A stretch of DNA of 64,000 bases. It comes from Calothrix anomala FACHB-343 (GTDB taxonomy: Bacteria; Cyanobacteriota; Cyanobacteriia; Cyanobacteriales; Nostocaceae). The notes under the pieces were generated by a model, which saw only the letters and a program-made list of their open reading frames with translations, did no database searches and was not told the DNA's origin. The position numbers and the translations under genes were made by a program. The stretch covers positions 93,224-157,223 of the forward strand of contig NZ_JACJQG010000014.1 in the NCBI RefSeq assembly GCF_014696435.1. The letters are read 5' to 3'. Below, piece after piece: positions 11,686-63,401 of this stretch (its first letter is position 1; each line of letters opens with the position of its first letter).

Positions 11686-12729
11686 GTGGGTCTTTTCAGG
11701 AACTTTCGCTCATCGTGGGATATGGGTATCGACCTCGGTACTGCTAATACCCTCGTTTATGTATCAGGTAAAGGTATTGTACTCCAAGAACCTTCGGTAG
11801 TAGCTATCGATCAAAACGAAAAGATTGCACTAGCTGTGGGTGAAGATGCTAAAAAAATGCTCGGTAGGACACCAGGAAATGTGGTTGCTCTTCGTCCTTT
11901 GCGGGATGGGGTAATCGCTGACTTTGACACAGCCGAGCTGATGTTAAAGAGTTTTATTCAACGTGTTAATGAAGGTAGGTCATTGATTCTACCACGAATT
12001 GTCATTGGTATTCCCAGTGGTGTCACAGGGGTAGAAAGAAGAGCTGTCATGGATGCAGCTTCCCAAGCTGGAGCCAGAGAAGTTTATTTAATTGATGAAC
12101 CAGTCGCTGCAGCTATTGGTGCAGGACTACCAGTAGCCGAACCAACTGGTAACATGATCATCGATATTGGTGGTGGTACTACAGAAGTTGCAGTACTCAG
12201 TCTCCAGGGTACAGTACTGAGCGAGTCAGTCAGAATTGCAGGCGATGAACTCACAGAAGCAATTCTGCAATATATGAAAAAGGTTCATAACTTAGTAATT
12301 GGGGAACGGACTGCTGAGGACATCAAAATTCGCATTGGTTCTGCCTATCCCACCAATGACGATAATGATTCCATGATGGAAGTCCGGGGCTTACATTTAC
12401 TTTCTGGTCTACCACGTACTGTGACAATTAAAGGCCCGGAAATTCGTGAAAGTATGCTTGAACCGCTATCAGTAATTATTGAAGCGGTGAAACGCACATT
12501 AGAACGGACACCTCCCGAACTAGCAGCAGATATTATTGACCGGGGTATTATGCTGGCTGGTGGTGGTGCTTTACTCAAAGGCATAGATACGCTGATTAGT
12601 CATGAGACAGGTATCGTCACACATATCGCTGCCGATCCTTTATGTTGTGTGGTTTTGGGAACAGGTCGTGTTTTGGAAAACTTCAAGCAACTGGAACGGG
12701 TATTTAGCGGTCGTTCTCGGAATATGTAG
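11686..12729 (+). CDS. mreB: Rod-shape determining protein MreB
   Basis: A bacterial actin that polymerises under the inner membrane and guides sidewall peptidoglycan synthesis. At 347 residues it is full length. The actin-fold phosphate and connect motifs are visible: GIDLGTANTLVY, IDEPVAAAIGAG, MIIDIGGGTTEVA and IMLAGGGALLKG. Translation starts at a GTG (MGLFRNFRSSWD), with AGGA 5-7 nt upstream. It heads the mreB-mreC-mreD cluster. A 130-bp gap with an 18-bp perfect inverted repeat separates it from mreC, so the mRNA may be cut or attenuated there. Confidence 0.97.
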   Translation: MGLFRNFRSSWDMGIDLGTANTLVYVSGKGIVLQEPSVVAIDQNEKIALAVGEDAKKMLGRTPGNVVALRPLRDGVIADFDTAELMLKSFIQRVNEGRSLILPRIVIGIPSGVTGVERRAVMDAASQAGAREVYLIDEPVAAAIGAGLPVAEPTGNMIIDIGGGTTEVAVLSLQGTVLSESVRIAGDELTEAILQYMKKVHNLVIGERTAEDIKIRIGSAYPTNDDNDSMMEVRGLHLLSGLPRTVTIKGPEIRESMLEPLSVIIEAVKRTLERTPPELAADIIDRGIMLAGGGALLKGIDTLISHETGIVTHIAADPLCCVVLGTGRVLENFKQLERVFSGRSRNM

Positions 12730-52440: not shown

Positions 52441-52528
52441 ATGTGAGATATAGTATTATCTGTCAGCTTTTGTGCTAATCTATGAAAGCCTGTGCATAGC
52501 AGATACACAAAATGCTAGACAGTTTACT

Positions 52529-52615
52529 GGAGAGGTGGCAGAGTGGTCGATTGCGTCTGACTTGAAATCAGATGAACCCGCAAGGGTTCCGGGAGTTCGA
52601 ATCTCCCCCTCTCCG
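52529..52615 (+). tRNA. tRNA-Ser(TGA)
   Basis: A class II tRNA with acceptor arms GGAGAGG and CCTCTCC (52529-52535, 52608-52614), discriminator G, D-arm with GCAGAGTGGTCGATTGC, anticodon loop CTTGAAA (anticodon TGA), a long variable arm (GAACCCGCAAGGGTTC) and GTTCGAATC T-loop. CCA is not encoded. It stands at the edge of the accessory right end of the window and tRNA genes of this kind are common integration targets. Confidence 0.96.
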
Positions 52616-52707
52616 TTGGAAAATTGGTGATTTAAACATTGTGCGATTGTTAGTTAAGACTTTTGAGCTTATTTACAAATAGCCTTAAATAACAATCGTG
52701 TTAATTT

Positions 52708-55701
52708 TTAGTATCCATTATTTTCACTATTCCAACTAGACTGGCGTTTGCCACTATAGTATTTATGGCGAATAATTGAAGGTTCCTCTTGTTGAAATAA
52801 ATTTTCTAACCCACCTTCTAATGCCATATTACTTGCTTCATCAAGTATATAGTCAGTCTCATTTTCTAACACTTCATAAATAATATCTTCTCGCTTATAT
52901 TGTCCTAGTATTAACAAATAGTTTTTCTTTAATCTATTAACAGGTGCTGGGTTGCTATTTAAAGCTTTTACTACAGAACTTATGTGCTGTTCTTGTACAA
53001 GTTGAGTGATTAAATTAGGGAAATAATTAATGAGGTACAACCAAGTCTCCGTTGCCATAATTTTTTCTACAGTAGAATTACTTTTTGTGGCAAAATAAAC
53101 TAGTGTATTCCAATCATGTGCGTCAATACTAGGCAAGAAGCGTATTGCACGCAGAGTAATAGAGCGCATATATTCAGCAGTTGGTGCTGTGCAGTTAGTA
53201 TAATATTCTAACAACTTCATCACTTCAGATCTATGCCCCTGACGTGCTAAACTTTCTACGATTGGTAAAGGTTTGCGAATCAGCCAAGGATAATCACATA
53301 AAATTTTAATAAGTTCTCTGCTGATTGATGCAAATCCTAAATAAATTAACTTGTTAATTACAAAACGTATTCGTCTTTCTGCTATTTCTCTTTCTGGATT
53401 AATATCACTCAAATATTTTAATTGCTCTTGAACTTCATAAAATAAATCTACTAGTTGCAAATGTAAGTTATATTTTGTCTCTGTCCAATCTAGGTTAAGA
53501 GAATTAAACATCAACCTCCAGTAGTGAATATTTTCTGGAGTACTGTTATCTGGTAGGCTTGTTAAAACTAAACAAGATTCAAGGTTTACTTCGCGCTTGT
53601 GTTTGAAGATATACTTATATATTTTTCGGCTTAGTTCAGGTGCAGTGATATAGATACCAATACTTTCTAAACAAATTCGATATTGCTCTAAAAAGTACCA
53701 CCACTTTTCATCTGAATCATAATAGTTTCTAAATTCAGTTCTATACTGCTCATTCATAACCCATACATGAGTCATTAAATTATTAAATTTCGTATTAATT
53801 TTGTTTAAAACATTATCATCTTGAGTTTGTTGAATAAATTCAGTAACTTCATATATCTGAGTTTTTTCCTCATTTAAACTCAGACCAAGTTTGAATAACT
53901 CTTCTTGAAGAGTATCTAAGACATTCTGAAAATATTGTGGATTAGGAATAATTAAAATAATGTCATCTAGATAACGATGATACTCAACATCCCATGCATT
54001 ATTTGCTCTAAATTTAGCATCAATAGATGTTAAATAAATATTTGCATAGAATCCTGAAGCACTACCCCCTTGAGTTATACCTCGACCAATTTCATGTTCA
54101 TCTAACTTTTGTGAAAGTAATATTCGTAGCAACCATCTAATACGTTCACTTTCAGTACGTAATTCATCCATCGCTAACTCAATTAGATGGTCTTGTATAA
54201 TTTTTGTATAATAAGATTTAATATCAACCTTTAGAACCAAAGCATTTTCATGCTTTTCTGCACTCCTACGAGCCTCAGCAAGAAAACTATCATAATATGC
54301 ATTGAACCAAGGTTCATATAAATATTCTGTTTCTTGGTTTCCATTTCTTCGAGCTAGACGATAAGCATTACTACTTTGCAAACTATCTGCTTTATCTCCT
54401 AGTTTCTGAATAATTGCTACTGATAATATTTCTTCTTCCATCCGCGATAATATTTTTAAACGACCAGATGAATGTTGTTTTATAAATTTGTATGATATCT
54501 GCTCATGAGTATGGGCTACATCCTCAGTGTAGGCAATTAATTGCTGTTGTAGCCTATTTAGGTTTGCATCCAGATTTTTCTCAAATAGACGAATTTCTAT
54601 CTCATCGAATAGCGATTCTGTAAAGAAGTTATGACGTGCCCTTACCCAAGCCAGTTTAAGATTTTCTAAGCTTGTAACATCAATCCAGTCTTGGTCAGAT
54701 TTTAATCCAGCACTATTGATAGTGCTGATATCAACATGAAATTCTGAATAATAATATTGTTGCTGATGCTTTTCTATCCAATAGCTACTATCAGGATTTG
54801 CATAGTCAACTCTATAAGTACCTTCACCTATTTGCTTTACAGTGTGGAGGCTACGACTGAAAACGTTTTTTAAAGCATTTCCCATCTCTCTAACACGGTT
54901 TTGAAGTAAGGAATAGTCAGTGCCAATTGTAATCACATGCATATGATCTATTGGCACTTCTTCAAATAATTGTTTGTATGCGAGTGCCTCTACATGCCCA
55001 AACTCCTCATAATCATCCACTAAAACATCTGAGCTAACGCCTAGAGCCTTAAGATTGCTGTAGAGTTGCTTGCAATCTTCATGATTGCTACTCAGTAGAG
55101 ACACTACATTAACCTGCATGATCAAAACATGGGCTAGACAAGGTTGTTGCCAATAATCACACTTTTGCTTGCAACGTCTAATCACTCTAGACATAGCATC
55201 TGGTATACCATAAGGTACTATTTCATACTCCAAGTTGATTTTTGATGAAACAACCTTAGCCTTGACTTGTTCCATCAATTGACTGTACAAAGCAACAGCC
55301 CCGGGATTAATATCTACACCTAAACAAAAAATATTTGGTGAATGATTGAAATTACCTATTTCCTGTAGGTAAAGGATTGTTTCTATAAAGGAAACAGAAG
55401 CTGCACCTGCGCCACATCCAACATCAATAAGGCAAATATGTGGGTTATATTTTATCCATTCTAATAACTGTTCTAAGCCAATAATCTCTCTTAAGGTATG
55501 GGTAAGTTTGAAATAGTGCGCTGGAAACAAGGCATAATACTGAGCTGCTGCACTTTTGAGAGTATTTTGACTCAAGGAACGAGTAATATCTTTAAAATGA
55601 ATCTTTTTATACCCATCTGCCTCTGACTTTGTTTCTAGCCAATCATGTACAGCAGTATATGCACTTGCAATGTAAGGATGAAATGATAGATAATGTTGCA
55701 C
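52708..55701 (-). CDS. Methyltransferase-reverse transcriptase fusion protein
   Basis: A 997-residue multidomain protein. Residues about 45-290 form a class I SAM methyltransferase-like domain (LIDVGCGAGAASVSF at 91-105, CLGVDINPG at 126-134), with a faint likeness to Rsm22-type enzymes. Residues about 420-640 form a reverse transcriptase: motif A VDIKSYYTKI (Asp493), motif B GITQGGSASGFYANIYL (541-557), catalytic RYLDD (Asp579, Asp580) and motif D LGLSLNEEKTQIY. Residues about 680-960 are helical, as in the helical tails of defence-type RTs. No intron maturase, retron RNA or Cas1 fusion is seen. It starts at GTG 55701, has its own likely promoter, and follows ZorB/ZorA-like genes. I place it in the unknown-group/defence RT class by inference; the fused methyltransferase is unusual. 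Confidence 0.85.
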   Translation of the reverse strand: MQHYLSFHPYIASAYTAVHDWLETKSEADGYKKIHFKDITRSLSQNTLKSAAAQYYALFPAHYFKLTHTLREIIGLEQLLEWIKYNPHICLIDVGCGAGAASVSFIETILYLQEIGNFNHSPNIFCLGVDINPGAVALYSQLMEQVKAKVVSSKINLEYEIVPYGIPDAMSRVIRRCKQKCDYWQQPCLAHVLIMQVNVVSLLSSNHEDCKQLYSNLKALGVSSDVLVDDYEEFGHVEALAYKQLFEEVPIDHMHVITIGTDYSLLQNRVREMGNALKNVFSRSLHTVKQIGEGTYRVDYANPDSSYWIEKHQQQYYYSEFHVDISTINSAGLKSDQDWIDVTSLENLKLAWVRARHNFFTESLFDEIEIRLFEKNLDANLNRLQQQLIAYTEDVAHTHEQISYKFIKQHSSGRLKILSRMEEEILSVAIIQKLGDKADSLQSSNAYRLARRNGNQETEYLYEPWFNAYYDSFLAEARRSAEKHENALVLKVDIKSYYTKIIQDHLIELAMDELRTESERIRWLLRILLSQKLDEHEIGRGITQGGSASGFYANIYLTSIDAKFRANNAWDVEYHRYLDDIILIIPNPQYFQNVLDTLQEELFKLGLSLNEEKTQIYEVTEFIQQTQDDNVLNKINTKFNNLMTHVWVMNEQYRTEFRNYYDSDEKWWYFLEQYRICLESIGIYITAPELSRKIYKYIFKHKREVNLESCLVLTSLPDNSTPENIHYWRLMFNSLNLDWTETKYNLHLQLVDLFYEVQEQLKYLSDINPEREIAERRIRFVINKLIYLGFASISRELIKILCDYPWLIRKPLPIVESLARQGHRSEVMKLLEYYTNCTAPTAEYMRSITLRAIRFLPSIDAHDWNTLVYFATKSNSTVEKIMATETWLYLINYFPNLITQLVQEQHISSVVKALNSNPAPVNRLKKNYLLILGQYKREDIIYEVLENETDYILDEASNMALEGGLENLFQQEEPSIIRHKYYSGKRQSSWNSENNGY

Positions 55702-55758
55702 TCTACTAATGATTCAATTTTTAACTAAGAATTTAATAAATAATAACTTAAGGGAGTG

Positions 55759-55786
55759 ATTATACGCATAATATTACTCACTTCAA
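55759..55786 (-). promoter_or_regulatory. Likely promoter of the methyltransferase-RT gene
   Basis: On the minus strand TTGAAG (55781-55786) and TATAAT (55759-55764) are spaced 16 bp, a good sigma-70-type promoter. It gives a leader of about 50 nt. A palindrome, TCAAGATATTCTTGA (55783-55797), overlaps the -35 and could bind a regulator. Confidence 0.6.
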
Positions 55787-55909
55787 GATATTCTTGATAT
55801 TTTCGGTTTTTTTATATTCCGAATTGCCGTTTTTCATGTTACGTGTGTAATGAAAGCGATCGCCACTTTCTCTCCCAAGATTTAGAATTTTTGCACGAAA
55901 TCATCAGTA

Positions 55910-56623
55910 TTAGCGTTTATTACCTATAGTCTTATACTGTCCCAACTGAGCGAAGCGAATTTCAATCCGCCGACGCTTGGGATTATCGCTTCTGTCTGGT
56001 GGCGCAAATCCTCTATCATCTGGTAATAGCAATTGCGCCGCAGAATAGGCTCGAAATTTTAGCTGCTTGAAAAGTCCTGATTTTTGTTGACGTTGCACAT
56101 TTTGCAGTTCTTTAACTACTGCTAAGGCTCTCATTAAGCCTAAATCAGCATTAGAACCTGGACATAAAATCGAAACATCGCGATTACGAGTAGCAACTTC
56201 TTCTAATTTTGTATCTAAATTCCCACCGTTTTGATTACTACATTTTAAATAACCAACTTCTTCACCATCTGTATGACCAATAACTTCAATAACATCAACT
56301 TTTTTATTACTATTTTCAATTTGCTTAATATTATTTTCAATTTCTTTTAAAATTATGCCATTTTGACCGATATCGGTTTTTAAATTACGTGGTAATACTG
56401 CGCTACCCGAAGGAAATTCATATTTTGCCGATGGTAGTTCAATAATTGTTGGCTTTTCATCAGCACCAGTTCCTATCTGGGCATCATTATTTTTTGAATT
56501 TCTGGCTATTACTAATAATAGCAGCAACGTCATAATCATAAAAGCATTAGACATTAAATCAGTAAAAGAAGTCCAGATACTAAAAGTATCATTCATCGGT
56601 ACAGTTCTTGTTCTTCTTGGCAT
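55910..56623 (-). CDS. MotB/OmpA-like membrane protein, ZorB-like
   Basis: A 237-residue protein with a short cytoplasmic start, one membrane helix (about 23-41) preceded by WTSFTDLMSN with an Asp at residue 22, placed like the proton-carrying Asp of MotB/ExbD/ZorB. The periplasmic part has an OmpA-like peptidoglycan-binding fold: VIEVIGHTDGEEVGYL and NPKRRRIEIRFAQLG. It should pair with the MotA/TolQ-like gene that precedes it by 25 bp. In Zorya defence systems ZorB anchors the motor to the wall. Here the role is inferred. Confidence 0.82.
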   Translation of the reverse strand: MPRRTRTVPMNDTFSIWTSFTDLMSNAFMIMTLLLLLVIARNSKNNDAQIGTGADEKPTIIELPSAKYEFPSGSAVLPRNLKTDIGQNGIILKEIENNIKQIENSNKKVDVIEVIGHTDGEEVGYLKCSNQNGGNLDTKLEEVATRNRDVSILCPGSNADLGLMRALAVVKELQNVQRQQKSGLFKQLKFRAYSAAQLLLPDDRGFAPPDRSDNPKRRRIEIRFAQLGQYKTIGNKR

Positions 56624-56648: not shown

Positions 56649-58055
56649 TCAAGATTGTTGTAATCTTGCTAATGCAGTTACTAAATTAGTCATATTAGTT
56701 TGAATATGCTGCATAGCTTGATTATTTTGCTCAAATTTTTCAGTAATTTTTTGTAATTGATTAATTTGATTATTTAATAGCGATGCATTTTGATTTAATG
56801 CTGAGACTAATTGCGTTGTATTCGTCTGAGAAGCTTGTGTAGTATTTTCAATAACTCCTACCAAACTTTGCAAGCGATTATTGTGTGTACCAACTTCGCC
56901 AGTGTGGTGCGTTAAAGATGTTGTTAGTTGGGATACATTAGTGTTGAAAAATTGGCTGCTTGTTGACAGTGTATTGGCATTTTGCACCAGGCGATCGCTT
57001 ACTTGCGTGAGGTTTTGTTGATTAGTTTGAATTAAGTTTTGGATTTGTAAAGAATTATTAACCAAAGTCTGACCAATAGCTTCTAGATTATCTGCATAGT
57101 CTTGTAATTTATCTATGGCGTTATCAAAAGAATTAGTCGATTTACGTAGAGAATTTGTGATATCGGAGAAAGTGTTAGTTAACTTTGCTAAGTTGTTAGT
57201 TGCACTACTTAAAACATTAGCGCCTGTTTGCATCGACTGCGAAGATTGATTCGCTACAGCTTGGAAGTTATTCGCAGATGTATTAAGTGTATTTGATGCT
57301 GCTGTCACAGCATTTTGAAAATCTTGAGTGCTTTTTGGTAAAGTGGTGATAAAACTATTTAAGCTTTGGGAATATTTATCGATAGACTTGATTAAAACTT
57401 CTATTTTTTCTACTACAGTTGGCTGATTTTGCGATAACAAAAAATCGTTATCTAGGTAATCTTCTAAAGAAATCAGCAGTTTATCTTTCTCTAAATCTAA
57501 ATCATAAGTCGGATGAAATTTCGTCAAAAACACGCTTCCTGCTAAAGCTGCAAGACTACTCACAAATGCGATCGCCATTGAACCGATAATATCTGGTAAG
57601 GCTTGTTGTAATTGCAGTTCGCCGCCAGTATTTCTACCGATTAAGAATAAATTCATTGTAATTCCCAAGAATGTCCCTAGTAAACCGAGAGCTAAAAGAG
57701 AGTTAGGAAGTAACTGATAGGAACGCTTATGTCTTTCCCAAATTTTTAATTCTGGGTTTTCACTACATCTTTTTTCTATTAAAGCTACTTTATTAATTTT
57801 CTCTAATTGGTATTTGCTAATACCTTGAACTTTCTGGACTAATTCAGCCTGAATTTTTTGTTCGATTGTATCTACTTGTTGAAGTAAATTTTTCTTCAGT
57901 CTGACACCATCAATCGTAGATTTAATAGTTAAAGTCACAAAACCCAAAACTATTAAATAAGGAAACCAAGGTATAGATGAAGGCTTAATTAAGTAAAGTA
58001 ATAATAAAACTGCACCAATTATTAATACACCAGAGCGAATTGAAAGTTGATTCAT
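56649..58055 (-). CDS. MotA/TolQ/ExbB-like protein with long coiled tail, ZorA-like
   Basis: A 468-residue protein. Four membrane segments: about 9-23, 29-46, 115-139 (LLALGLLGTFLGITMNLFLIG) and 157-178 (IGSMAIAFVSSLAALAGSVF); the last two match the MotA/TolQ/ExbB channel. A Ser/Thr/Asn/Gln-rich tail (about 190-468) follows with regular heptads, suggesting a long cytoplasmic coiled coil. ZorA has the same layout and its tail carries the signal to effectors. It is 25 bp before the ZorB-like gene, so the two are an operon. General proton-channel proteins outside defence remain possible. Confidence 0.8.
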   Translation of the reverse strand: MNQLSIRSGVLIIGAVLLLLYLIKPSSIPWFPYLIVLGFVTLTIKSTIDGVRLKKNLLQQVDTIEQKIQAELVQKVQGISKYQLEKINKVALIEKRCSENPELKIWERHKRSYQLLPNSLLALGLLGTFLGITMNLFLIGRNTGGELQLQQALPDIIGSMAIAFVSSLAALAGSVFLTKFHPTYDLDLEKDKLLISLEDYLDNDFLLSQNQPTVVEKIEVLIKSIDKYSQSLNSFITTLPKSTQDFQNAVTAASNTLNTSANNFQAVANQSSQSMQTGANVLSSATNNLAKLTNTFSDITNSLRKSTNSFDNAIDKLQDYADNLEAIGQTLVNNSLQIQNLIQTNQQNLTQVSDRLVQNANTLSTSSQFFNTNVSQLTTSLTHHTGEVGTHNNRLQSLVGVIENTTQASQTNTTQLVSALNQNASLLNNQINQLQKITEKFEQNNQAMQHIQTNMTNLVTALARLQQS

Positions 58056-58316: not shown

Positions 58317-59348
58317 ATGAATACAGGGATATCTAAAATTATCGGTGGACGTTATGAGATTGTTGCATTACTTGGGGAAGGTGGTTTTAGCAAAACTTAC
58401 CTAGCGAATGACTTGTTACAATCTGGAATGCATTATGCAGTTAAGCATTTTACGTTTTCTAGTACTAAACCAAGTGCGGTTACTACAGCTAAAAATCTCT
58501 TTCAACGAGAAGTAAATATTCTGCAAAAATTAAACGGACATCCGAATATACCGAGTTTCTTTGAATATGTAGAAGAAAATCAAGAATTCTATTTAATTCA
58601 ACAATATATCCAGGGAAATACTTTAACTGAAAAAATCCAATCTCGGCAAAATCTCGCAGAGTCTGAAGTTATCGAAATGATACATAAAGTAATTAATATT
58701 CTCGAATTTGTCCATGAAAATAATATTATTCATCGAGATATTAAGCCAGATAATATAATTATAGATAAAGACGATAATTTATTTTTAATTGACTTTGGTG
58801 CTGTCAAAGAATTTATTGCTCAAAATACTCAGCTACAAAAACCAGGAACACAAATATATACCCAAGGCTATGCACCAATAGAACAAATGCGAGGATATCC
58901 CCGATTTAATAGTGATATTTACGCGCTAGGAATGACAGCAATTGAAGCACTCACAGGTTTAGAACCTCAAGCTTTAACCTTGGATATTTACGGAGAAATT
59001 GTCTGGAGAGATAAAGCAGAAGTTAGCGATTGGTTAGCAAATATATTATCAAAAATGGTTCGCTATGAATTTAGTACTAGATATCAAACAGTTATCGAGA
59101 TAAAACGAGATTTAAATCCAAATCAATCTGTAACAAACTTAGTACCAACACAAGCGATCGCACCATCGATTAATATATATCAAACAAGCAATGAATCCAC
59201 AAGTAATATGATTCTTTATACAATCATGGGTGTGTTATCGATCGGAGCAATTCTGTATGCGGCTGGATTACTACCAGGAACAAGAAATACTCAGCCGAAG
59301 AGACAACAAGCTTTATTACTAGAAACAACTTTAATTTCTGATGTTTAG
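58317..59348 (+). CDS. Membrane-bound Ser/Thr protein kinase (Hanks type)
   Basis: A 343-residue kinase. The Gly-rich loop is LLGEGGFSKTYLA (18-30), the ATP-binding Lys is in HYAVKHF (Lys43), the catalytic loop HRDIKPDN (139-146) and DFG (159-161) are intact, and GYAPIEQMRGYPRFNSDIYA forms the activation/APE region. One membrane helix (about 299-319) near the C-terminus leaves only a short tail outside. Cyanobacteria have many such kinases. It diverges from the ZorA-like gene over 261 bp, so regulatory sites could be shared, but a functional link is not shown. Confidence 0.9.
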   Translation: MNTGISKIIGGRYEIVALLGEGGFSKTYLANDLLQSGMHYAVKHFTFSSTKPSAVTTAKNLFQREVNILQKLNGHPNIPSFFEYVEENQEFYLIQQYIQGNTLTEKIQSRQNLAESEVIEMIHKVINILEFVHENNIIHRDIKPDNIIIDKDDNLFLIDFGAVKEFIAQNTQLQKPGTQIYTQGYAPIEQMRGYPRFNSDIYALGMTAIEALTGLEPQALTLDIYGEIVWRDKAEVSDWLANILSKMVRYEFSTRYQTVIEIKRDLNPNQSVTNLVPTQAIAPSINIYQTSNESTSNMILYTIMGVLSIGAILYAAGLLPGTRNTQPKRQQALLLETTLISDV

Positions 59349-61358: not shown

Positions 61359-63401
61359 ATGAAGCATGAAAAAATCCACAAATCCTCTTCCAGGAAACCC
61401 GCAACTCAGGAAGGAAGTATTTCGCAGTTAGCTTTGCGCCCGAATAATATCCAAGCAAAACAGAATTCCCAAAAACCTCCTACACAGGAAGAAATAGAGA
61501 ACGAAGCTTTCAACCAAGACAAGCAGGAAGCCTTTGGACTGCAACTTAAGGAAAAGTATGGCGCGATCGCTCCTGAAGAACAAGAAAGATTAGGCCTTTT
61601 GCAAGCCAAGATGGATGACTTCTGGGTGCAGAGATGGGAAAAGCGATCGCACTTAGGTCACAACTTTGCGAATATTCCCATTCATGCTCCAGATAAACAA
61701 GTATCAGCACCGATACAGCCTCATCTACCACCTTTCCAGGCAAAATTGACGATTGGGGAGCCTGGAGACAAGTATGAGCAGGAAGCAGATCGGGTAGCAT
61801 CCCAGGTAGTACAACAGATAAATACACCATCTGCGGCACAGTCAACTCAAGGACAGTCGGTACAGCGTCAGGAAGAACCAGACGAAGAACTAGAGACGAA
61901 ACCGAGTATTTCTGTCCTCCAGCGATCGCCTTTACCAACCCAGGTACAGTTAGAAGCGATGCCTGAAGATGAAGAATTACAAGCTAAGTCAATCTTACAA
62001 AGACGGGGTGCCCAGGGAGGCGGCGAAGCTTCAACAAATTTGGAATCAACCATTAATACTGCCAGGGGAAATGGACAGCCTTTAGATGCGGGTCTGCAAC
62101 AGTCAATGGGGCAGGCTATGGGGGCGGATTTTAGTGGGGTGAAGGTGCATACGGATGCTCAAGCTGACCAGTTGAATCGCTCGGTTCAGGCGAAAGCGTT
62201 TACAACGGGGCAGGATGTGTTCTTTCGGCAGGGGGAATATAACCCAGGGAGTCGCGGGGGGCAGGAGTTGATTGCCCATGAGTTGACTCATGTGGTACAG
62301 CAGAATGGTGGGGCAGTGATGCGATCGCAGTTGCAAAAGGATACAACGCTACATTTGTATAGAGCAGAGCCAAGTATAAAAGCAACCATCCAGCAACAGA
62401 AGATGAGCTTCTCCACTGCAACTTCTTCGACACCAGGCACGATTGTTCAGTGCAAAGTAACCATAGGATCGGACAAGTATGAGAGCGAACGGGGTGGACG
62501 ACGTTTAAAGTTTCGATTGGGTCGATCTCTAGAGATGATGTTTGGGAAACGAGCACCCGATGATGTCATGGAAAAAATAAAAGGCATGGTGACCGACGAG
62601 CGCAACCACATCTTTGATTCTGATTCGGCGTTTTTGCAATATGTTGTTGAGTCTTACGGACAGCAATTGACGCAGGTCGGAAGCACCAGACGCAGGGGAG
62701 CAAATAGCCATTGGACGACCAACCCGTTGGGACGAGCTAAGTTCACAACCCGGGTGCAACAGGATTTGCTTGTGGGAGAAGAAGAGCATCGCCGACATGT
62801 GATCCCCTCGCATACATTGGGTCAGGCGGCGGCGATGAGCACGAGTCCGCTTAATGATATCAATGATTTCAATGAACGATGGGGCGGGCAATCGTCTGAT
62901 TCGGAACATGACGCACGAAATAACAGTTACAATATTCTTCACAATAATTTGCATAACCTTTGGGTAGGTAAAGGTGGGACGAATAGTGCAATAGGCTTTA
63001 TTCAAAGCACTATGTTTGGCATCTCGGATTCCATTGTGAATATGGCAGACACATACGGAAATGTTGACTTACAAAATGTATTTCGTGTCATGAATGACAA
63101 GGCGAAACCGACATTTCCTGCATGGAAAGACTTTCAAACGGCATGGGATTTGATTATAGGGGTTACAACCGATTTGTTACAGTCCGTTGCTAACAACGAC
63201 GGGAAAGTCAACGTGGTGGATACGGCGGATGTGTTTACTGATATTGCAAATTCATGTGCACTCGACTTACCTGAGTCAGCTATAACACCACAGGCATACC
63301 AGCAGCAGGTAATAACGTTGTTTGAAGCTATGCATGTGGAACGTCAACATCATGCGAAGGATGGCGTGTTTGATAAGTTTATGAACTTGGGATCAACATG
63401 A
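61359..63401 (+). CDS. DUF4157 protein, eCIS-type cargo with possible nuclease end
   Basis: A 680-residue protein. Residues 1-235 are polar and disordered-like with the DUF4157-linked GEPGDKYEQEADRVASQV (134-151). DUF4157 (about 240-318) ends with zinc motif HELTHVVQQ (307-315). The last part (about 365-680) is distinct: EEHRRHVIPSHTLG (475-488) and NILHNNLHNLWVG (525-537) have spaced His/Asn residues that look like an HNH-type nuclease or similar toxin. DUF4157 marks proteins loaded into extracellular contractile injection systems in many bacteria. No eCIS structural genes are in the window. Confidence 0.8.
   Translation: MKHEKIHKSSSRKPATQEGSISQLALRPNNIQAKQNSQKPPTQEEIENEAFNQDKQEAFGLQLKEKYGAIAPEEQERLGLLQAKMDDFWVQRWEKRSHLGHNFANIPIHAPDKQVSAPIQPHLPPFQAKLTIGEPGDKYEQEADRVASQVVQQINTPSAAQSTQGQSVQRQEEPDEELETKPSISVLQRSPLPTQVQLEAMPEDEELQAKSILQRRGAQGGGEASTNLESTINTARGNGQPLDAGLQQSMGQAMGADFSGVKVHTDAQADQLNRSVQAKAFTTGQDVFFRQGEYNPGSRGGQELIAHELTHVVQQNGGAVMRSQLQKDTTLHLYRAEPSIKATIQQQKMSFSTATSSTPGTIVQCKVTIGSDKYESERGGRRLKFRLGRSLEMMFGKRAPDDVMEKIKGMVTDERNHIFDSDSAFLQYVVESYGQQLTQVGSTRRRGANSHWTTNPLGRAKFTTRVQQDLLVGEEEHRRHVIPSHTLGQAAAMSTSPLNDINDFNERWGGQSSDSEHDARNNSYNILHNNLHNLWVGKGGTNSAIGFIQSTMFGISDSIVNMADTYGNVDLQNVFRVMNDKAKPTFPAWKDFQTAWDLIIGVTTDLLQSVANNDGKVNVVDTADVFTDIANSCALDLPESAITPQAYQQQVITLFEAMHVERQHHAKDGVFDKFMNLGST

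Follow-up and report, generated by a model that had tools for sequence, protein, structure and literature searches.

The gene considered here encodes a reverse transcriptase (RT) of the UG35 group and is located on the minus strand at positions 52708-55701 of a 64-kb stretch (64,000 nucleotides) of the Calothrix anomala FACHB-343 genome, which is referred to below as the window. Its product is a protein of 997 residues composed of a methyltransferase-like region, an RT core and a C-terminal tail; residue numbers refer to this protein and coordinates to the window, with position 1 as its first letter. The reading frame begins with a GTG start codon at 55701 and ends with a stop codon at 52708, and the plus strand of 52708-55701 is full of stops. 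Relatives with 27-53% identity align over the entire length of the protein, which rules out a chance open reading frame (ORF) and bears out the extent given in a preliminary description made from the sequence. The SAM (S-adenosylmethionine)-binding half of a class I methyltransferase-like domain was delimited by hhalign, Pfam hits and conservation to residues 77-146 (55264-55473, minus strand), with a Gly loop formed by D93-V-G95-C96-G97-A98-G99 and an acidic residue at D130. The RT core, residues 481-618 (53848-54261, minus strand), is matched by Pfam RVT_1 with an E-value of 6e-19 and contains motif A with D493, motif B (QGGSASG from Q544) and motif C (RYLDD) with D579 and D580. Residues 656-997 (52711-53736, minus strand) make up the tail. 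The numbering previously assigned to the Gly loop, D130, D493 and D579/D580 is correct, as is the presence of a long tail of about 340 residues after the RT motifs. Comparison of the tail with solved structures and Pfam gave nothing convincing in the window copy; the tail of a distant relative, locus L021, matches HEAT_2 at E 7.6e-5, under the cut-off of that family, and that of one other relative matches ERAP1_C at E 5.5e-5.

As judged by profile comparison, the window RT is a UG35 enzyme and a member of the UG/Abi defence-associated RTs. The PADLOC model RT_UG35 scores 1289.7 bits over residues 2-994 compared with 184.8 bits for the runner-up UG25, which argues for membership of UG35 and against a new group. 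The earlier suggestion of a new RT group is therefore withdrawn, since UG35 was already present in the PADLOC-DB of 2023 with a model of 938 positions that spans the N-terminal region too. Those NCBIfam intron, retron and DRT models that match the protein are all far under their cut-offs. Sequence matches to solved structures at E 0.01 or below comprise prokaryotic RTs, including Drt2, Drt3a, group II intron RTs and a UG15 entry, and in addition AprA methyltransferase 1. The residues D493, D579, D580 and K613 are invariant in 19/19 aligned UG35 proteins. A literature search covering UG35, RTasHel, DUF1848 with RT, and methyltransferase with defence RT found no UG35 paper, the founding 2022 classification, which may already note the N-terminal domain, being outside its reach. 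That classification, by Mestre and others, is said to have defined UG35.

The central proposal of the preliminary description, that a SAM-binding class I methyltransferase-like region and an RT whose catalytic residues are intact share one chain, is upheld by profile-profile comparison and conservation. Taken alone, the window protein shows weak matches only, to Methyltransf_31 on residues 91-151 (E 0.08, under its cut-off) and to PrmC (E 0.0019). Single Pfam scans of 19 UG35 N-terminal regions recovered Methyltransf_36 in ten, Methyltransf_31 in nine and Methyltransf_12 in seven, and a further six methyltransferase families in two to five proteins each, with a best E-value of 1.3e-4. When a profile of the 19 regions was compared with solved structures it matched AprA methyltransferase 1 at E 0.0016 across both the Gly loop and the acidic residue, followed by 12 further chains at E 0.06 to 1.9, six of which are of methyltransferase type. 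The alignment of this region by hhalign to 19 Methyltransf_31 proteins of the same genome has a probability of 96.1% over about residues 77-146, with an E-value of 3.2e-9 that is computed, like all hhalign E-values here, for a library of one. The controls remained at 0.1% for short-chain dehydrogenases, 0.1-0.6% for the RT and C-terminal parts and 0.1-0.9% for five column shuffles. D93, G95, C96, G99 and G128 are invariant in all 19 proteins, and at position 130 there are 15 proteins with D and four with E. These sequence comparisons support a class I methyltransferase-like N-terminal region for its SAM-binding half only.

The distribution of UG35 is patchy. At E 1e-60 it is found in 5/388 genomes of the class and 14/218 of the family, the genome of the window being included in both counts, and in 0/8 of the other genomes of the genus. 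A survey of 400 genomes of a second phylum around an Anaerolineae relative returned that relative and no other (E 1e-40). An alignment query combined with two peptide patterns yielded 42 pattern matches in a species-genome collection and from these 30 relatives, of which 28 are cyanobacterial and two are Anaerolineae by record title; the window protein as a single query yielded seven pattern-matching stretches in the same collection with no relative among them. With the window and loci L020, L021, L030 and L032 the 30 relatives make up 35 distinct UG35 loci. Plasmids gave no match at 1e-20 and 114 matching records at 1e-3, none of which covers 80% of the query, and among the matches listed (20 of the 114) the similarity is confined to the RT region. 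In viral contigs 34 stretches fit a pattern and none of them is a relative. A group of long relatives of about 1160 residues has an extra N-terminal part, which in the one scanned shows sub-threshold ribbon-helix-helix matches. In the tree the long proteins form one clade (100/100), the short proteins with an adjacent helicase form another together with L084 (97/98), and the window copy groups as the sister of L080 (97/98) in a region of the tree shared with L089 and L096, both of which carry a DUF1848 gene. L080, L087 and L096 were each represented in the tree by one open piece, four further broken relatives were omitted, and the long branches of L021, L089 and L082 make their placement unsure. 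Six long UG35 RT genes are directly preceded by a small antisense ORF, which in L020 lies at 11730-12116; these ORFs are related between the loci, and the one scanned has no convincing family. The RT gene of L022 is split by a gene with a DDE transposase domain (L022:8002-9375), and that of L025 holds an insert of similar size whose ORF is without a Pfam match.

Most UG35 loci encode a partner. A gene resembling RTasHel lies beside 22/35 loci, in 18 of which it is whole or cut by a contig end and in four of which it is damaged (L083, L087, L092, L097). RTasHel is a UvrD helicase into which an RNase_T (DnaQ-like) domain is inserted at about 465-619, as seen in 3/3 proteins scanned. It is catalogued in PADLOC as PDLC03802; the model was run on two loci, both of which match, and the remaining assignments are by similarity to those two. 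The PADLOC helicase model has 675 positions compared with about 818 residues in the UG35-linked proteins, a difference in length which suggests that the model may leave out the exonuclease insert. The helicase gene is located downstream of the RT gene in the long relatives and upstream of it in the short ones, where three measured overlaps between the two genes are 4 to 8 bases long. A DUF1848 gene is present at 3/35 loci (L080, L089, L096), and the L080 protein matches PDLC03815. L082 has AddB-like and UvrD-type genes. None of these partners is found at 9/35 loci, namely the window, L084 (for which 1 kb upstream is available), L095, L021 and the RT fragments L102-L105 and L109. Not only is there no RTasHel or DUF1848 beside the window copy, but a search of its own genome for the helicase found UvrD-type genes only, of which the closest, on another contig, has 33% identity, and a search for DUF1848 found none, with the L080 genome as a working positive control. 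In L082:7757-19781, which is from Anaerolineae, the UG35 RT lies within a run of AddB-like, nucleotidyltransferase, HEPN, UvrD-type, PD-(D/E)XK and RecJ-like genes. Beside the most distant UG35 RT, that of L021, two genes (L021:8960-10328) have weak matches below cut-off, one to RNase_H_2 and the other, which is antisense, to a 2OG-Fe(II) oxygenase (2OG-FeII_Oxy_2).

The window copy occupies a variable slot at 52618-55909 in which it stands alone. Seven of the eight other genomes of the genus are collinear with the window on both sides of this slot and differ within it. On the left the slot is bounded by the 3' end of a tRNA-Ser (TGA) gene on the plus strand (52528-52616), an edge shared by 7/7 relatives scanned, and on the right its boundary coincides with the stop codon of a ZorB-like gene or falls close to it. 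Directly past the RT stop codon there is a 21-nucleotide inverted repeat (52644-52698, fold z-score -4.96), which probably terminates transcription between the RT gene and tRNA-Ser. The slot contains a NACHT-NCH2 gene in G399 and likewise in G406 (there by similarity on reading only), GmrSD_N with HNH in G404, HEPN_Swt1 in G403, an IrrE-type gene with a second small gene in G400 (PIN-like by eye, with no PADLOC match), and AAA_15 with a small gene on the opposite strand in G401; in G402 it measures 0.4 kb with no ORF of 60 residues, and in G405 the contig stops inside it. No direct repeats that could serve as attachment sites connect the tRNA-Ser to the far slot edge, and no integrase is present among the slot genes scanned. 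The slot is read as a tRNA-Ser-linked defence hotspot of the genus, in which no fewer than five other types of cargo and one nearly empty site occur. The GC content of the RT gene is 33.7% compared with 40.6% for the window, with 6/245 windows of equal size lower, and the gene contains none of the 63 HIP1 octamers of the window. The low GC content and the lack of HIP1 octamers suggest lateral gain, and the gene was probably acquired laterally into the hotspot. The ZorAB-like pair next to the slot, which is conserved in the genus, is nearly as AT-rich (GC 33.9%).

DRT1 is described as a single gene consisting of an RT and a nitrilase, in which protein-primed, template-free synthesis controls the enzyme domain (PMC13275509). 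It is proposed that the UG35 gene is a one-gene defence RT with a DRT1-like mode of action that was acquired sideways into the tRNA-Ser hotspot, a reading for which we put the chances at about even. By analogy with DRT1 the RT would respond to a phage cue by synthesising DNA, with the protein itself as the probable primer; candidate tyrosines for such priming that are invariant in 19/19 proteins are Y674, Y844 and Y928. The DNA synthesis would switch the state of the attached SAM-binding, methyltransferase-like domain, which would be the effector or the sensor. In most relatives the adjacent UvrD helicase with its DnaQ-like 3'-5' exonuclease would trim or unwind the DNA, and the window lineage would work without it. 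Defence activity, protein priming and any methyl transfer by UG35 are inferred. A DRT1-like working is favoured by the combination of an RT, a long C-terminal part and an enzyme-like domain with the lack of a partner. No conserved non-coding RNA was found at the window locus, which points the same way; a comparison of the flanks of the window gene with 19 other UG35 loci revealed no shared sequence. The location of the RT gene in a slot used by defence-type genes is consistent with a part in defence. Several observations weigh against this proposal. RT_UG35 is catalogued as a candidate defence group, and the window protein has no Pfam match to a nitrilase or phosphohydrolase domain, by which class 3 of the UG/Abi RTs, the class of DRT1, is defined (PMC13275509). 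At least 7/35 UG35 genes carry an interruption or a frameshift (L080, L083, L087, L088, L096, L100, L101), breakage of the kind that resembles a dispensable gene, and five further loci are fragments, some of them at contig ends. The 208 nucleotides upstream of the RT gene fold somewhat better than shuffled sequences (z -2.11, with 5/200 as good), so that the window locus may have a non-coding RNA which is unshared with other loci. Unrelated Pfam families are mixed in among the weak matches of the single N-terminal regions, the commonest being Thioredoxin_8 in 6/19 with a best E-value of 0.03. The catalytic half of the region (about residues 150-330) matches nothing, motifs I-II being the recognisable part, and the loop has kept its middle glycine in 12/19 proteins, the window copy included, and has another residue there in all seven long ones.

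The last two of these points are also in support of a second interpretation, in which the methyltransferase fold of the N-terminal domain has degenerated and at most binds SAM, acting as a scaffold or metabolite sensor for the RT with no methyl transfer. It is further favoured by the amino-methyltransferase motif IV, [DNS]PP[YFWH], which is present in 0/19 aligned proteins. Yet four residues of the loop (D93, G95, C96 and G99) are invariant and position 130 is always acidic, and even the distant L021 retains a canonical DIGCGAG loop. This interpretation is possible and falls somewhat short of an even chance. The converse, that the UG35 chain carries an active SAM-dependent methyltransferase, is more doubtful. 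In this case phage-triggered DNA synthesis would lead to methylation of the RT-made DNA, the priming protein or a host molecule, or to consumption of SAM, and the helicase-exonuclease would act as an eraser in most lineages and be absent from the window lineage. The preliminary description had spoken of a domain that modifies a nucleic acid; this is unproven given the lack of motif IV and the loss of the middle loop glycine in 7/19 proteins.

The partners are repair-like, and UG35 might instead be a DNA-repair-type RT and not a phage-defence RT. The UvrD and DnaQ domains of RTasHel beside 22 loci point in this direction, as do the AddB-like, UvrD-type, PDDEXK_1 and RecJ-like genes around L082, DUF1848 beside three loci and the weak sub-cut-off matches to 2OG-FeII_Oxy_2 and RNase_H_2 beside L021. 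However, UG35 is present in few genomes of the family and in none of the other genomes of the genus, and its patchiness, the signs of lateral gain, the frequency of broken genes and a slot that in relatives holds defence-type genes all point to defence cargo. A repair function is therefore considered unlikely.

The slot is followed by two genes on the minus strand, a MotB/ZorB/OmpA-like gene (55910-56623), which is conserved in the genus, and a MotA/ZorA-like gene with a coiled-coil-like tail (56649-58055). This arrangement resembles the ZorAB pair of Zorya and raises the idea that the RT serves as effector in a Zorya-like system together with the upstream pair, which lies on the same strand at a distance of 208 bp and shows weak ZorA and ZorB matches; the cargo is also on the zorAB strand in 6/7 occupied slots seen, the window included. 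Unlike Zorya, however, the pair is conserved independently of the RT and falls far under the curated cut-offs. The ZorA-like protein is present in 8/8 other genomes of the genus at 77-98% identity (with an in-frame stop in G399), none of which has a UG35 RT, and with the ZorA model it reaches 28 bits where the cut-off is 500, other ZorA models likewise being under theirs. One slot is nearly empty and another has its cargo on the opposite strand, ZorAB-like genes occur at 0/16 other UG35 loci and 0/30 loci (sets which overlap and in which some contigs are short), and ZorC, D, E, F and G are absent among the matches listed for nine neighbours scanned. A link between the flanking pair and the RT is not supported, and the ZorAB-RT system, which was dropped after comparison with the genus and with the UG35 loci, is highly improbable. 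Divergent from the pair is a Ser/Thr protein kinase gene (58317-59348), and the same neighbour is found by DNA similarity in L078 and L079; further on, near the hotspot, 61359-63401 encodes a 680-residue protein with an eCIS_core domain.

That the window gene is a group II intron or retron RT is hardly credible and was rejected, given that its generic RT similarity amounts to 73 bits for TIGR04416 against a cut-off of 300 and 49 bits for the retron St85 RT model against 235, that no maturase domain is among the Pfam matches of the protein, that the UG35 model leads the next one by about 1100 bits, and that intron or retron RNA, which the preliminary description had set against its own view, was found neither in the window at Rfam cut-offs nor in the vicinity of the gene with a limit of E 1, with no msr/msd match in Rfam, which would miss novel retron RNAs.

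In defence RTs with attached enzymes, DNA synthesis can turn an enzyme on or off, and UG35 would add SAM chemistry to the enzymes that are switched in this way. The group offers a two-gene comparison between RTs with and without the helicase-exonuclease, in which natural one-gene versions such as the window copy show the minimal unit. If the domain were inert it would still be a useful case of a SAM-binding regulator of an RT.

Among known systems, the closest is RT_UG35 itself (PADLOC-DB PDLC03774, filed under DRT), which the window protein matches over its whole length including the N-terminal region, and from which the window copy differs in having neither of the catalogued partners, RTasHel or DUF1848. 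RT_UG25 (PDLC03763) follows at 185 bits, about 1100 bits under UG35, and probably shares the three-part layout, as suggested by its alignment over residues 35-960; in a survey of genomes for UG25 two responded, both through their UG35 genes. AbiA and the Abi RTs have in common with the window protein an RT core followed by a long C-terminal part, and the helical domain of Abi RTs is predicted for UG RTs as well (PMC11077055). AbiA itself carries HEPN, and a methyltransferase is unmentioned in the main text of that paper, as the word also is in the main texts of PMC8934634, PMC13174585, PMC12632851 and PMC13275509. DRT1 resembles the window protein in the combination of an RT, helical repeats and an enzyme-like domain within one gene (PMC13275509). 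The two differ in that the nitrilase of DRT1 lies on the C-terminal side, whereas the methyltransferase-like region of the window protein, known from sequence alone, is located at the N terminus.

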